A stretch of 48,740 nt of DNA from a virus, in IMG/VR virus record IMGVR_UViG_3300028394_000112, positions 1 through 48,740 of that record, one strand, 5' to 3'. Positions 3,170 through 34,923 of the stretch are shown piece by piece. The translations under genes were made by a program, and so were the position numbers. The stretch's first letter is position 1, and every line of letters begins with the position of its first letter. Under the pieces are notes generated by a model, which was not told the origin of the DNA, searched no databases, and saw nothing but the letters and a program-made list of their open reading frames with translations.

Positions 3170-3528
3170 GATGTTTCCTGTCCCTTCATCGCTGCGGCTA
3201 CGTCGGAGGGTTTGATCATGATCGACTGCCCTTGGGTGTAGGACGGGATGAGGTCGGCGGCGATCATGCGGTTGAGTTTGGTGACGGTCAGGCCGATCAC
3301 CATGCCGGGCAGGTAGGACTTCGGCACTGCCTTGTCAGGATCCACGCCAGCGGCGTACACGGTTTTGACGGTGTTGACCGTTTCGGTCTGCACCGGTACT
3401 GGACTTCCGCGTCCCGCGATGGGGTTGAGTCCCTTTTGGGTGAGCCAATATTCGACTACGCCGGCTGTCGGTTCCGGGGCGATCCGCTTCTCGGGCCGTG
3501 TGGGTGGTGTGGTCAGGGTGAATGTCAT
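3166..3528 (-). CDS. Unknown protein between lysin B and lysin A
   Basis: A 120-residue protein overlapping both lysin genes by 4 bases, so it is translated as part of the lysis cassette. No membrane span or signal peptide is evident. The N-terminal ~30 residues are proline-rich. A segment resembling a small peptidoglycan- or HTH-type fold (EYWLTQKGLNPIAG, then KSYLPGMVIG and IPSYTQGQSIMIKP) follows. It is not recognised; lysis function is inferred only from the tight coupling. Confidence 0.7.
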   Translation of the reverse strand: MTFTLTTPPTRPEKRIAPEPTAGVVEYWLTQKGLNPIAGRGSPVPVQTETVNTVKTVYAAGVDPDKAVPKSYLPGMVIGLTVTKLNRMIAADLIPSYTQGQSIMIKPSDVAAAMKGQETS

Positions 3529-5018
3529 GTCTCTCCTACGCCACCGGGTAGATGATTGACTTCCCGCGTCTCCCCGGCGTCCGGGCAGACTTGGGCGGGG
3601 TCAGCTTTGATCGGGTAGTCCAACCAATGCGCCGGCCCCACAGTCTTGTTCAAGTGATCCAACGCGATCTGAACCCCGGACCGGCTGTCCCCCTGGACCG
3701 GCTTCCAGGTGTCCAAGTGGTAGACGTTGTGCGCTGAACTCATGCCGGTGAAAAGTTGAACGATGGCATCGAAGGCGGTACCCAGCGGGATGAGTGACGA
3801 AGTTTGCCCCATCAACAGTTCGAATATTGCCGTCAACGCCTGATCGTTCACACCATCGCCGTTGGCACAGACCGGATCGCCTTCGGCGGCGAACTCCCAC
3901 ACCAGATCGGTGGTATTGGTGAGCCTGCGTCCGTAGGCGGCGATACCGTGACCCGAAGGCACCGGGGTGCAACCAGGGAATGCCCTGCCCTCTTGGCGGA
4001 TTGGGTTGCCCATCAGGACAATTCCCAGGCAGTCGGAAAGCCGATTGACCTCACCGGAGCGGAGCTTCTTGTAAACCTCGCCCATGATCAGCGCACCCTG
4101 CGACAGACCGACCAGGATGAACCGGCCAGGTTTGGCGTTGATCGCCTCGACCACCCGTTGGATGCCCTGAGCGGAGGATTGCCCCATGAAGATGTTGTTG
4201 GGATAGCCGGTGATCTTGGTGTGGGCGAAAAACTGAGCGTTGAGGCCCAGCTTGAACGGCGTCAACTCAAGATTTGAGTTGGTCCCGACGCACTCGTAAA
4301 CATTGATTTTCAGGTGCGGCGAGGGGGCGTGGTAGCGCACAGCGCAGTACCCGATCCCACCGGCGCTCCCAGCGCCCATGCCGGCACCGCCACCCGATCC
4401 GCCACCACCGGGCTTGTTCACGTTCGGCGATGCGGGCCCGGCCCCGATGCCACCGACGTAGACGACATCGTCAAATTCCAGATCGCGTCCACCGCTGAGG
4501 TTTCCGCCCTGCGCGTCCTGACCAACCATCGCGGAGAGGATGGTGCCGCTGCTCATGCTTCCACTGTTGCCGGTGGGGTCAGACCCGCCAGCGCCGACGA
4601 AATGCCCGAACTCAAGGACACCTGTCGAGGTTTTGGCGTACAACCTGACAGAGCTTTGCGACCCCGGCTTGCCTGGGTTGCCACCATTGGGGAACGTGAC
4701 TCCGGTTCCGCTCGCACCACCCGGCCCTGGCCGCAGTTCCACATGGATCGACTGCACCTCGCGTCCAGCGAGCCAGTCTTGGATGCCCACCGTGGTGGCG
4801 TTCCACTTCGCGCCGTAGCCGCCCCGCCCGACCCCGGTGAGGCTTCCGCCCTGACCGCCGCCGCCGCCGCCGAGTGCGATCAGATCGACATGCGTCGCCC
4901 ACGACGGGATGTCGACGGTCGCCGGGGTGGTGGACTGGGTTGCGAACAGCACCGGCTCATTAACGGGTGGCTGTGCCTTCGCAGCTGAATCATCGTGCGA
5001 TACGGACTTATTACCCAT
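3525..5018 (-). CDS. lysB: Lysin B (cutinase-type mycolyl esterase) with N-terminal glycine-rich virion domain
   Basis: A 497-residue protein in two parts. Residues about 25-230 form a glycine-rich domain with the pattern VDIPSWATHVDLIALGGGGG, closely similar to the C-terminal glycine-rich domain of the fibre encoded at 45561-48740. Residues about 235-470 form an alpha/beta hydrolase of the cutinase family: nucleophile Ser306 in GLSQG, probable Asp381 in AEGDPVC, and His430 or His434 in SSAHNVYHLD. Lysin B cleaves the ester bond between mycolic acids and arabinogalactan and frees the outer membrane of mycolata. Most lysin B proteins lack a tail-type domain, so this one may be carried on the virion. 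It is followed by 3166-3528 and lysin A. Confidence 0.9.
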   Translation of the reverse strand: MGNKSVSHDDSAAKAQPPVNEPVLFATQSTTPATVDIPSWATHVDLIALGGGGGGQGGSLTGVGRGGYGAKWNATTVGIQDWLAGREVQSIHVELRPGPGGASGTGVTFPNGGNPGKPGSQSSVRLYAKTSTGVLEFGHFVGAGGSDPTGNSGSMSSGTILSAMVGQDAQGGNLSGGRDLEFDDVVYVGGIGAGPASPNVNKPGGGGSGGGAGMGAGSAGGIGYCAVRYHAPSPHLKINVYECVGTNSNLELTPFKLGLNAQFFAHTKITGYPNNIFMGQSSAQGIQRVVEAINAKPGRFILVGLSQGALIMGEVYKKLRSGEVNRLSDCLGIVLMGNPIRQEGRAFPGCTPVPSGHGIAAYGRRLTNTTDLVWEFAAEGDPVCANGDGVNDQALTAIFELLMGQTSSLIPLGTAFDAIVQLFTGMSSAHNVYHLDTWKPVQGDSRSGVQIALDHLNKTVGPAHWLDYPIKADPAQVCPDAGETREVNHLPGGVGET

Positions 5019-26204: not shown

Positions 26205-27881
26205 TCACCACCTTGATCCGAAGAAAGCCTGCGCCGGCTCCTCCGGCTCCGGGGCGTTGGACAACGCCACCCGGTACAACATCCGAGCCCCGATCACACA
26301 CACGCACGCGTCGATCTTGTCGGGGCTGTTGGGGGTTTCCTTACGCACCGTCACCGCACCCCAACGGGTTTCGGTCGTCCGCGCATTGCACACATGCCGC
26401 TCAGTGACCGGATGCCCGTCGTGGGTGAACGCCCCGTCGCGGATCTCGGCCTGGCACATCTCGGCGGCGAACGCGAACTCGCGGGAATGCGACCGCATGT
26501 CCCAGGCGATCGGCTCCGGCAATTTCCCACCCGGAACCGCCCACAGCTTCGGGGCGTACAGGTCCCGCCACCGCTCCGGCCACGTCACCTTCACCAGGCC
26601 CTCGATCTCACGCACGTCAGCCCAGAACGCCAGCACATCGAAACGCTCGTGCATCGCCTGGACCACCGCGTCCACCTCGGCGAGGTCGATCTGGGCGGTG
26701 TCCGTGCCCTCGTCGCGGCTCGTCGTCGGCTTCGGCTCCCACACCCCGGCGGTGAACACGTGCCCGTCATCCAGGCAGCACCCCACCACCGCAGTCGCAT
26801 CACGGGACTTCGAGCCGTCCACGAACAACACGACCCGCTCACCATCGACCAACTCCCGGCCCGGGTCGGCACAGCCCTGCCACGACTGCCGCTCCACCCA
26901 CGCATCCTCCGGCGCAACAGGCCAGTTCATGTACTTTCGCATCGAGTCGTCGATGCGAGATGCCTTGTGCCAGATGCGGTTAATGATGAACTTGGTGTCG
27001 GTCCACCAACAGTCCTCGTACACGTAGTCCAGGGCGGCTTTGAGGCTGTCATGGTCGGCCATGTCGGTGTCCGGCGGGGCCTGGCGGGCGTCGTAGAGGA
27101 TCAACGACTCAGTCTTCGTCGGCTTGCCCGCGGCGAGGAGTTCCTCCTGCTGAACCCAGGTGTCGAACGTCGATTCCGCGACACTGCTCGCCCCCGGTAT
27201 CCAGCAGTTTGCCGTCTCCAGCATCCGGCTGCCCGACTTCGCCAGGTTGTCGGCCAGGGTGTTCGAGAACATCTGACCGGGCTTGCCGTACCAGTGCTCC
27301 ACCTCATCGGCGACGATGAACGACGCCTCAGCCCCCTCCGCGCTGGCCGCGGAGTTGGTGACCACTTCAAGCTTGCCGCCCTCGGAGGTGTGGTAGATCT
27401 TCAACCCGGGGTCCAGGCCGTGTTCGACCGCCACACGGGACCCTTTGCGCGCGAACGCACGAACCATCCGCATGGTGTTCTCCGTCTGAGCCTCCGACAC
27501 CGCGGCGATCTGAACCAACGGCATTGACACCGGCTTACCGACACACCCGCCGGGCCGGGCAGAGTCGAAATCCTTCAGCCGCACCGGCCCGCACAGCTCG
27601 GTCAGCGCCAGCGACGCCGCCGCCGGCGACTTCCCAGTTCCCTTACTCAGCCGCCGAACACCGTGGTGGTGCAACCAGTTACCCGCCTCATCCACGGCGT
27701 ACCACCACAGAATGAACCTGGCCTGGCGCGGCGTCGGCTGATACCGCTGCCCCGCCTTCGGCCCGTTCGGCTGCACCAGGTACTTACACATCCACCTGAT
27801 CGCCTCGTAGCCGAGCGACAGACCAGGAACCCCTACCGGCAGCGTGTCCAGACGCGCCGCCGGGCTGACGATCTCAGCCAC
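26205..27881 (-). CDS. terL: Large terminase subunit
   Basis: A 558-residue packaging motor and nuclease. The ATPase domain has Walker A at about residues 79-86 (LSKGTGKS) and Walker B with catalytic Glu in FIVADEVEHW. The C-terminal RNase H-like nuclease domain has acidic metal-binding residues in VLFVDGSKSRD and SPDKIDACVCVIG near the end. It lies between the small terminase and portal genes. It follows the small terminase by 3 bases, so they are probably co-translated. Confidence 0.93.
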   Translation of the reverse strand: MAEIVSPAARLDTLPVGVPGLSLGYEAIRWMCKYLVQPNGPKAGQRYQPTPRQARFILWWYAVDEAGNWLHHHGVRRLSKGTGKSPAAASLALTELCGPVRLKDFDSARPGGCVGKPVSMPLVQIAAVSEAQTENTMRMVRAFARKGSRVAVEHGLDPGLKIYHTSEGGKLEVVTNSAASAEGAEASFIVADEVEHWYGKPGQMFSNTLADNLAKSGSRMLETANCWIPGASSVAESTFDTWVQQEELLAAGKPTKTESLILYDARQAPPDTDMADHDSLKAALDYVYEDCWWTDTKFIINRIWHKASRIDDSMRKYMNWPVAPEDAWVERQSWQGCADPGRELVDGERVVLFVDGSKSRDATAVVGCCLDDGHVFTAGVWEPKPTTSRDEGTDTAQIDLAEVDAVVQAMHERFDVLAFWADVREIEGLVKVTWPERWRDLYAPKLWAVPGGKLPEPIAWDMRSHSREFAFAAEMCQAEIRDGAFTHDGHPVTERHVCNARTTETRWGAVTVRKETPNSPDKIDACVCVIGARMLYRVALSNAPEPEEPAQAFFGSRW

Positions 27882-27884
27882 GCA

Positions 27885-28322
27885 CTAGCCATGCAGTTCG
27901 GTGACGAGGGCCAGCACTGCCCGGTCGGCCGCCGCTTCGTCCTCGTCGACGCCGACAGGCTTCATTTCCACACCACTGCGACGCTTGTCGGCTGGGGAAA
28001 CCAGCAGTGCGTTCAGACCCGCTTGGAACGCGCTCCAAGCTTGTGCTCCCGGGATCTTCCCGCTCGACATCAGCTGGTTGCCGTAGTGCAGTTCGATCCG
28101 CACCCGCTGCCAATCCGCCGCCGAGTAGAACTTCGGCTCGATGCTGTGGTGCAACCGCTCCCACAACCCGAGGATCAGCGGGTGTGCGTCGAACCCGAGC
28201 TCGGCCGGCGCCGGGCTGGCCGGCTGCGGCTCGGTCGGTGTCGCCTCACCATGCGAGGCAGGCGCATTCCGGCGACGTCGCTGCGCCGCCCGCTTGGGCG
28301 GCGGTCCAGTGGGTCTAGCCAT
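27885..28322 (-). CDS. terS: Small terminase subunit
   Basis: A 145-residue protein directly before the large terminase. A basic Pro/Arg/Ala-rich N-terminal tail of about 40 residues is followed by a helical core (HPLILGLWERLHHSIEPKFYS, then YGNQLMSSGKIPGAQAWSAF) and an acidic end. It should recognise the packaging site and deliver it to the motor. Assigned by position plus the core resembling small terminases of mycobacteriophages. A GGAGG ribosome site sits before the ATG. Confidence 0.85.
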   Translation of the reverse strand: MARPTGPPPKRAAQRRRRNAPASHGEATPTEPQPASPAPAELGFDAHPLILGLWERLHHSIEPKFYSAADWQRVRIELHYGNQLMSSGKIPGAQAWSAFQAGLNALLVSPADKRRSGVEMKPVGVDEDEAAADRAVLALVTELHG

Positions 28323-28365: not shown

Positions 28366-28452
28366 TCAGCCCTTACAGCCGGAGCCGTCATTACCGCAGT
28401 GATGATGACCGGACTTACACAGACCGCAGTGGCAGTCACAACCCGGGATCAC
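28366..28452 (-). CDS. 28-residue Cys/His-rich peptide (metallothionein-like)
   Basis: A very short frame with a GTG start whose bases overlap the TGA stop of the acidic coiled-coil gene (GTGA). The product has 28 residues with six cysteines (5, 7, 9, 12, 19, 26) and four histidines (8, 16, 17, 18), and reads MIPGCDCHCGLCKSGHHHCG at its start. Such density is like a metallothionein or zinc knuckle. It lies between 28449 and the small terminase. No ribosome site stands out, so translation would depend on coupling. The metal-binding pattern is clear; that the peptide is made is an inference. Confidence 0.5.
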   Translation of the reverse strand: MIPGCDCHCGLCKSGHHHCGNDGSGCKG

Positions 28453-28886
28453 TCGTCGTCTTCTGCGTCGCCGGAATGTCCGTCGGTCACCTCGACGGTG
28501 TCGGTGTCGTCGTCAACCTCGTCGACCTCAACATCGTCAACCTCAACCTCGTCGACCTCGTCGACCTCGGGATCCACAGCAGGATCGACCACCGCATCCG
28601 GGACGATGTCGTCCAGCGCCTGGGCGATCGCGGACAGCTCCGACAGGTCGATGATGTCGGCGGCCACACCGGCGTCGACGAGCTGGGAGGCGATGTTCTG
28701 CTCAGCCGACTCCAAGCGGTCGACGATCTCGTCCTTGGCCTTACGGAGCTGGTCGACGATCTGGTTGATCTGGTTCTGCACGGACATGGTGTGCCTTTCG
28801 ATAGAGCGGATGATGTCGTGATGGATGGTGATGACAACCGCAGCCAAGGCCGCGATCACGAGTGCGAGGACGAGCGTAGCGTTCAT
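28449..28886 (-). CDS. Membrane-anchored acidic coiled-coil protein ahead of the terminase genes
   Basis: The reading frame from the ATG at 28886 gives 145 residues. An N-terminal hydrophobic segment (about residues 4-21) is followed by a helical coiled coil (MSVQNQINQIVDQLRKAKDE ... AEQNIASQLVDAG) and a very acidic tail of Asp/Glu/Val repeats (about 100-145). A second ATG at 28787 (MSVQNQ) has a better GAAAGG ribosome site, so a shorter 112-residue form without the membrane segment is possible or even the main product. The function is unknown. Its place at the head of the late operon suggests a virion or assembly role. Confidence 0.7.
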   Translation of the reverse strand: MNATLVLALVIAALAAVVITIHHDIIRSIERHTMSVQNQINQIVDQLRKAKDEIVDRLESAEQNIASQLVDAGVAADIIDLSELSAIAQALDDIVPDAVVDPAVDPEVDEVDEVEVDDVEVDEVDDDTDTVEVTDGHSGDAEDDE

Positions 28887-29192: not shown

Positions 29193-29432
29193 TTAGTCGG
29201 TGGTGGCGGTGAGGTGTGGTGATGGGCAGCTGTGCCGCCGGCGGTGGGCGGTGACGGCTGCGGATAGGGCTGCGGTGTCTGGCTGGATGCGCTGGACGCG
29301 GGTGGCCTTGCGGTGGGCGGCCCGCTGTTCGGTGATCCTGGCGATGGGGACGGGGGTGATGGTGGTGTCGCAGGTGTCGCAGGTGAAGGCGATTTCGCGT
29401 TCGGCTTCGGTGGTTCGCTGCTGCTTGGCCAT
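29193..29432 (-). CDS. Small CxxC protein next to the HNH nuclease
   Basis: A 79-residue basic protein; start at the ATG at 29432, overlapping the HNH gene stop (TGATG). CDTCDTT near residue 18 gives one CxxC knuckle; a further Cys is at SCPSP near the end. Not recognised. It closes the cluster of small genes before the 28.9-29.2 kb intergenic region. Confidence 0.65.
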   Translation of the reverse strand: MAKQQRTTEAEREIAFTCDTCDTTITPVPIARITEQRAAHRKATRVQRIQPDTAALSAAVTAHRRRHSCPSPHLTATTD

Positions 29433-29767
29433 CAGTGCACATCTCCTGGATGTGGTCGGTGCAGGGTGAGGCGTTGGCGTCTGGCTGCTGCTCGCTCGCG
29501 GTTGTGTTGGGCTAACGCTGCTGAGGTTTCGCGTCTTGTCTTGATGGTGTGGCAGTGGGTGCAGGCGGACTGCAGGTTGTGGGGGTTGATCGCGGCGGGG
29601 TGGTTTCGGGGGATGCCGAGTTGCGCCAGGCCGACGATGTGGTCGACGGTGGTGGCGTGTCCGGTGCAGCCAGGTTCGCGGATCTGGCAGTGGTGTTGGT
29701 CGCGGTCGAGGATCTGGCGGCGGACGCGCTGCCATCGGGGGTGTTCGCCTTGGCCCCAGCGGCTCAT
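29432..29767 (-). CDS. HNH endonuclease
   Basis: A 111-residue HNH nuclease. It has a CxxxxxC pair (HHCQIREPGC), the core TTVDHIVGLAQLG with catalytic His, then NLQSACTHCHTIKTRR that supplies the second zinc pair and the final His. Small HNH proteins close to terminase genes are needed for packaging-site cleavage in many cos-type phages. That role here is an inference. ATG at 29767, overlapping the tiny gene upstream by 4 bases. Confidence 0.88.
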   Translation of the reverse strand: MSRWGQGEHPRWQRVRRQILDRDQHHCQIREPGCTGHATTVDHIVGLAQLGIPRNHPAAINPHNLQSACTHCHTIKTRRETSAALAQHNRERAAARRQRLTLHRPHPGDVH

Positions 29768-34466: not shown

Positions 34467-34615
34467 TAGAAACCTCCCTTCCGTGTCGTCGGGCATCCAT
34501 CCCGATGCCCCTGTGTTCTGACGTGGAATGCGCACCGCGGGCAGCGGCCGGCGCCGGTGGGTGGGGTGAATCCGGCGGCCTTGAGGGCCAGGAACTCCCG
34601 ATAGGCGTCACTCAA
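34466..34615 (-). CDS. Small zinc-knuckle protein
   Basis: A 49-residue product from a TTG at 34615 that overlaps the preceding stop (TTGA) and follows GGGAG. A longer open frame (to 34750) is an Arg/Pro-rich shadow. The product contains CPRCAFHVRTQGHRDGC, a CxxC...H...H/C zinc site. Not recognised. Confidence 0.6.
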   Translation of the reverse strand: MSDAYREFLALKAAGFTPPTGAGRCPRCAFHVRTQGHRDGCPTTRKGGF

Positions 34616-34761
34616 GCTGTCTCCCAGGTGGATACGCCGCAGCAGCAGCGGTGGTCGTCGTCGGTGATATCGGCGACGTGTTCGGGTGGCTTGATGCATA
34701 CGTGGTCGGTGCCGTCGGTGCCGGGCCAGCGGTGGCCGCATTCGGCCCAAGAGTCAGGCAT
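34612..34761 (-). CDS. Small Cys-rich protein
   Basis: A 49-residue product from the ATG at 34761 (MPDSWAECGHRW at the start) with a GGGGAG site. Cys/His at AECGHRW, DHVCIKPPEH and DDHRCCCG suggest one zinc site. Related small proteins (CGHxWPG...HxC) are common in mycobacteriophage early operons. Stop overlaps the next start. Confidence 0.6.
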   Translation of the reverse strand: MPDSWAECGHRWPGTDGTDHVCIKPPEHVADITDDDHRCCCGVSTWETA

Positions 34762-34776
34762 CGACTCCCCCGCCGT

Positions 34777-34923
34777 TCACCGGTCACCGTCCAGTTCGCC
34801 GTCCGGGCAGTGGCAGAACCCGAGGCCGGGCTCATCGACGTAGGAGTGTCCTTCGCACGGCCCGCGGTGGAACTTGTGGCCGCAGATGCAAAGTGGCGGC
34901 GGGCTGGCTCCGAGTCGGTTCAT
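34777..34923 (-). CDS. Small CxCxxH protein
   Basis: A 48-residue product from the ATG at 34923: LCICGHKFHRGPCEGHSYV then GFCHCPDGELDGD. Six Cys and several His in 48 residues, likely zinc-binding. ATGA overlap with the upstream gene. Not recognised. Confidence 0.62.
   Translation of the reverse strand: MNRLGASPPPLCICGHKFHRGPCEGHSYVDEPGLGFCHCPDGELDGDR

Follow-up and report, generated by a model that had tools for sequence, protein, structure and literature searches.

A putative metal-binding Cys/His mini-protein beside phage terminase genes, with likely relatives in Mycobacterium chromosomes and in other viruses

A 28-codon frame directly in front of the terminase genes in the window (the whole 48,740-nt stretch of viral DNA analysed here) is very probably a real gene, of a size that is easily missed. 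Judged by its sequence, the encoded peptide appears to be a divergent member of a family of 26-55-aa proteins that has no name. The explanation we favour, at a probability of about 0.7, is that coupled re-initiation yields a translated, putatively Zn-binding accessory mini-protein that acts as a structural adaptor.

A Cys/His-rich frame in the packaging operon

The original prediction singled out this frame for its six Cys and four His in 28 residues (10/28, 36%), for a GTG start that shares bases with the preceding stop, and for its location straight before the small terminase gene. All of this is present, on the minus strand, which had been left unstated (Table 1). Read 5' to 3' from 28452 to 28366, the ORF is GTG ATC CCG GGT TGT GAC TGC CAC TGC GGT CTG TGT AAG TCC GGT CAT CAT CAC TGC GGT AAT GAC GGC TCC GGC TGT AAG GGC TGA, and no two of its Cys codons are adjacent. 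The GTG sits within the end of the upstream ORF, in a GTGA overlap (28452-28449) that likely couples translation to that gene. No strong SD precedes the GTG, so initiation likely occurs by this coupling. The peptide stop lies 43 nt from the terS ATG (28322). GC3 is 0.62, compared with 0.77-0.86 in the flanking genes, and the peptide has no signal sequence.

The minus strand carries, in order, an HNH endonuclease, a small Cys-containing ORF, ~300 bp without an assigned gene, an acidic protein, the peptide, terS, terL, portal and head protease. The acidic protein has two in-frame starts, at 28886 and 28787; the latter gives 112 aa, making the hydrophobic segment optional. The protein shows weak similarity (E 0.03) to a Mycobacterium phage protein, gp6 of Marshawn, which is likewise encoded a short way upstream of a terminase. 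The small Cys-containing ORF found no match in a Pfam search; visual comparison suggests a resemblance to Marshawn gp7 and to an ORF in L006/L008. PHROG 226 labels the terS family (27885-28322) 'minor tail protein'; PF25673 and phage annotations identify it as the terminase small subunit, and the PHROG label looks wrong. Elsewhere on the minus strand of the window, at 34612-34761 and 34777-34923, are two more small Cys/His-rich ORFs (MPDSWAECGHRWPGTDGTDHVC...HRCCCG... and MNRLGASPPPLCICGHKFHRGPCEGH...FCHCPDG...), with spacing unlike that of the peptide.

The composition of the peptide stands out within the window. Its Cys+His share of 36% is the highest among 302 ORFs of 20-60 aa, with the runner-up at 21%, and over 200 dinucleotide-preserving shuffles of the window the mean maximum was 23% and 36% was reached in none (0/200). 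When the residues of the peptide itself were shuffled 2,000,000 times, the loose family pattern described below arose in 32 cases and the stricter mycobacterial pattern in 0, which indicates that the match is not a mere by-product of composition.

Table 1. Features of the window discussed in the text, and larger viral proteins that carry the module
Feature	Position	Strand	Details
28-aa Cys/His-rich mini-protein gene	28366..28452	minus	GTG start, TGA stop; MIPGCDCHCGLCKSGHHHCGNDGSGCKG; supported by family alignments
GTGA start-stop overlap	28449..28452	minus	peptide GTG with TGA of upstream gene; from sequence
Upstream gene, 145 aa	28449..28886	minus	N-terminal hydrophobic segment, coiled coil, Asp/Glu-rich tail
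Terminase small subunit (terS)	27885..28322	minus	PF25673 Terminase_7; own SD GGAGGT
Terminase large subunit (terL)	26205..27881	minus	
Small Cys-containing ORF	29193..29432	minus	MAKQQRTTEAEREIAFTCDTCDTTITPV...; ATGA-coupled to HNH gene
HNH endonuclease	29432..29767	minus	
Module in amidoligase-like viral protein	L157:16-1494		
Module in amidoligase-like viral protein	L176:579-2360		
Module in cytosine methylase-like viral protein	L178:2635-3804		DNA methylase
Module at C-terminus of viral AAA ATPase	L160:4197-5594		
Module inside or at end of unassigned larger viral protein	L200:12404-14371		

We found the peptide and the acidic gene at none of the IMG/VR loci that encode related terminases and in none of the three phages inspected; terS homologues are present in these, at 24-61% identity. 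Broken frames between retained flanking genes, which the original prediction had named as evidence against the gene, were not what we saw; the terS/terL relatives are missing both the peptide and the gene upstream of it. The site is thus variable, and the peptide gene is an accessory insert rather than part of the packaging core.

Among terminases, those of Mycobacterium phages MalagasyRose and Nergal are nearest, and the window encodes a PE-PPE/cutinase-like domain, so the host of the phage probably has mycolic acids. The sampled Mycobacterium genomes contain few terS relatives and no closer relative of the window phage. The cutinase-like domain is fused to a glycine-rich domain (PF21722) in one minus-strand protein (3525-5018; the domain itself at 3528-5018), possibly an envelope esterase joined to a tail-type domain. 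The MalagasyRose record annotates as tRNA-Pyl a tRNA with anticodon cta (L001:445-529); it lies near the terminase end and may read amber codons.

A conserved small-protein family in Mycobacterium

A scan of genome contigs (one genome per species) for C.C.C..CK.GHH gave four places. One of them, in a Mycobacterium MAG, is an ORF of 35 aa, MRASEAKAGSGCTCHCNACKGGHHCGNPPNCNIRR, that has the ribosome-binding site AGAGGAG. Alignment of this protein to the window peptide shows GC.CHC..CK.G.HHCGN in common, and family alignments allow all six Cys to be paired. Motif matches in Bacteroidota, Methanoperedens and L064 were rejected, as their frames held no suitable short ORF or overlapped a longer gene.

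Of 297 genomes sampled from the genus of the MAG, 37 (~12%, about 1 in 8) contain C.CHC..C..G.HC, and none contains the reversed control pattern. Nearly all matches are stand-alone ORFs of 31-36 aa, most with ATG and an AGGAG-type SD. The Mycobacterium consensus is GCxCHCxxCDxGHHCGNxPNCNxRR (for example L098, L079 and L137), and the loci of this consensus family (L076-L105 and L125-L141) come from genomes of the genus and the order. A family HMM found members in 20 of 399 genomes of the order, including subgroups beyond the consensus: CTCRCNACDGGHHCHNIGSGCKVKL, in which GSGCK agrees with the window peptide; CRCHCGTCSGGGHCHNIAAGCAVRR; and CGCHCGSCSSGAHCHNMSSGCNVR, with a Pro/Arg-rich N-terminus. 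The N-terminal segment varies among the chromosomal homologues. In a phylum-wide sample, strong HMM matches fell only in genomes already in the genus or order samples, and beyond Mycobacterium-like matches E-values were marginal.

The chromosomal ORFs are real protein-coding genes under strong purifying selection. Pairwise medians are dN 0.11, dS 1.14 and dN/dS 0.09, with synonymous change saturated. None of 38 distinct chromosomal sequences departs from the six Cys, the Gly, the two His of GHHC, or HCGN, and the codons for these residues differ among them. The sequences were chosen for GHHCGN, which in part guarantees the constancy of GHHCGN itself; the Cys and the synonymous variation are informative when taken with the looser HMM matches. 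The original prediction had looked for conserved Cys with synonymous variation in related phages; the pattern comes instead from mycobacterial chromosomes, where relatives keep every Cys and synonymous sites vary freely. In phages, tblastn of the peptide against 50,697 records gave nothing credible, only two irrelevant partial matches.

Chromosomal copies usually follow an AMP-binding acyl-CoA synthetase gene and have genes for DUF4383 membrane proteins or a convergent Ppx/GppA gene nearby. As expression of a DUF4383 gene in M. avium is induced by low oxygen, we looked for a DosR box upstream of the copies, and found none above the level of shuffles.

The Mycobacterium mini-protein family matched no Pfam, NCBIfam or PHROG model in the searches made. 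The peptide has no Pfam match at E ≤ 1, and PHROG, NCBIfam and PDB profile searches returned no match. Text searches of the open literature (motif strings; metallothionein with phage terms), beyond whose reach most subscription papers lie, returned no description. Some chromosomal copies may already be entered as 'hypothetical protein'. An AlphaFold model of a family member is poor (pLDDT 59), so the model lends metal binding no structural support; such a score says little about a metal-dependent fold.

How close is the window peptide to this family? The peptide (GCDCHCGLCKSGHHHCGNDGSGC) retains all six Cys, the Gly and HCGN, and has one extra His. In alignments it conforms to the core C-x-C-x-C-x2-C-x2-G-x(1,2)-H-C-x(3-7)-C, and with 28 aa and a GTG in the GTGA overlap it is a stand-alone short ORF, as family members are. 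However, it departs from the exact mycobacterial spacing G-x-H-C, since its GHHHC is one residue longer. This longer spacing has a single, repeat-like match in the 297 genomes of the mycobacterial genus and occurs in some viral ORFs (L246, L249 and L254). We therefore place the peptide in the wider family and not in the mycobacterial branch.

Viral mini-proteins and modules within larger proteins

Viral sequences yielded nothing to the strictest pattern (C.C.C..CK.GHH, 0 matches), and the 26 matches to a relaxed form, C.C.C..CK.GH, were all rejected as chance frames. C.CHC..C..GH gave 21 matches with one credible (L065), and tblastn of the homologues against phages and plasmids gave nothing credible. 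The looser C.C.C..C..G.HC matched 64 IMG/VR loci; many are chance frames, but nine are distinct short ORFs with an ATG, an SD-like sequence and a sixth Cys. These viral mini-proteins, among them MKKIRRILMAWCTCSCRPCYDGRHCHNRSSGCY, MTDKKCVCYCANCLRGNHCGGSGCGQ and MSGENPCNCGCSACRDGNHCKQGNCWR, follow C.C.C..C..G.HC-x(3-7)-C. The longer G..HC spacing of the window was found at 46 viral loci, mostly by chance, with four short ORFs of the same kind, such as that of L254 (MKIRFAKVLSCSCNCYGCVSGSGHCNSVKCGGG).

Larger viral proteins, enzymes included, also contain the module (Table 1). Its sequence contexts suggest that C.C.C..C..G.HC is a portable, putatively metal-binding insert. Homology across such distant viruses is plausible but depends on a short motif, and the distant resemblances could instead reflect convergence.

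Possible function and comparison with known systems

So, what might the peptide do? Re-initiation at GTGA would produce it within an operon that runs on into terS and terL. Its Cys and His would most likely ligate one or two Zn(II), or another thiophilic metal, to form a compact knob, and this knob could serve as a structural adaptor that binds a partner protein or nucleic acid. The phage copy may be an accessory late gene expressed alongside the packaging genes, and possibly a mimic of a mini-protein of the host. That it contacts the terminase, or captures the partner of the host mini-protein, is a guess from position and resemblance. A broader proposal, which we offer tentatively and consider rather unlikely, is that a portable metal-binding module that matched no Pfam, NCBIfam or PHROG model in our searches is common to mycobacterial chromosomes and diverse viruses, as mini-proteins and enzyme inserts, and that with its own copy the window phage mimics the host mini-protein in late infection so as to capture the partner of that protein. 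The occurrence of the family in phages and hosts provides a small, purifiable target for learning what Cys/His mini-proteins do, and its motif offers a means of annotating phage-borne and host-borne examples.

The original prediction had likened the Cys+His density to that of metallothioneins. A metal store or detoxifier of this type, with Cys and His binding Zn, Cu or Cd and no specific partner, is in our judgement improbable. Bacterial metallothioneins (SmtA/BmtA; MymT) are small and very Cys-rich, with CxC motifs and His, as is the peptide with its repeated CxC and 36% Cys+His, and mycobacteria possess the Cu metallothionein MymT. Nevertheless, the homologues have no match to Pfam metallothionein models at E ≤ 10, sequence and HMM comparisons link the peptide to no bacterial metallothionein, and its spacing differs from that of MymT and SmtA. 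Within ±1.5 kb of the chromosomal copies there are no recognised metal-resistance genes, but instead acyl-CoA synthetase, DUF4383 and Ppx/GppA genes. The single fixed ligand spacing around an invariant Gly and His, and the embedding of the module in enzymes of other viruses, which would be odd for a metal store, lead us to prefer a structural site.

Could the frame matter only in cis? Passage of ribosomes over its Cys codons, or coupling alone, might set terS-terL expression with the peptide itself unimportant. Cys-rich upstream ORFs in mycobacteria have been proposed to act as attenuators that respond to Cys, and small ORFs coupled through RTGA are common there (PMC4633059). The peptide resembles these uORFs in being a short, Cys-rich ORF in an operon context, 43 nt upstream of terS. 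However, the known examples are at different loci, preceding cysA2, Rv0485 and nirA on leaderless mRNAs, and the cysA2 uORF has a cluster of Cys codons (PMC4633059). The window frame has no run of adjacent Cys codons before a gene of Cys or sulfur metabolism; a terminase gene with its own SD lies downstream, and GTGA ties the peptide to the upstream gene rather than to terS. The position of the GTG within the end of that gene may also speak against its being the first ORF of a leaderless mRNA. Moreover, its family conserves residues and not just a supply of Cys. The conserved Gly, His and Asn and the residue-level selection in the chromosomal family favour a protein product, and we give a purely cis-acting leader little credence.

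It is still less probable that the product is a disulfide-rich or modified peptide (a RiPP-like precursor) rather than a metal protein. The shortness, the many Cys and the variable N-terminal segment of the chromosomal homologues would suit a precursor, but there is no signal sequence, the small flanks inspected show no obvious modification or export genes, and the phage copies would be cytosolic products adjoining packaging or replication genes. The least probable reading is a chance open frame that is not translated, which would fit the absence of the peptide from this locus in phage relatives, the low GC3 and the weak SD, but not a Cys+His density that none of the window shuffles reached or a pattern that matches that of a mycobacterial gene family conserved in its own right.

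Two further systems offer close comparisons. Zn-ribbon-like small proteins are encoded upstream of terS in mycobacteriophages; Marshawn gp7, for example, is a small Cys protein similarly placed between an acidic coiled-coil protein and terS, yet its spacing is CxxC...C...C, it has ~66 aa and it shows no evident sequence similarity to the peptide. The mycobacterial small-ORF family has in common with the window copy six Cys, the G.HC core, the CHC triplet, HCGN and a GSGC/PNC tail, and both are stand-alone mini-proteins of similar length. Unlike that family, the window copy has an extra His, a shorter N-terminus, a GTG coupled to the upstream gene and no basic C-terminal tail, and it belongs to a phage packaging operon, whereas the mycobacterial genes lie near DUF4383 genes.
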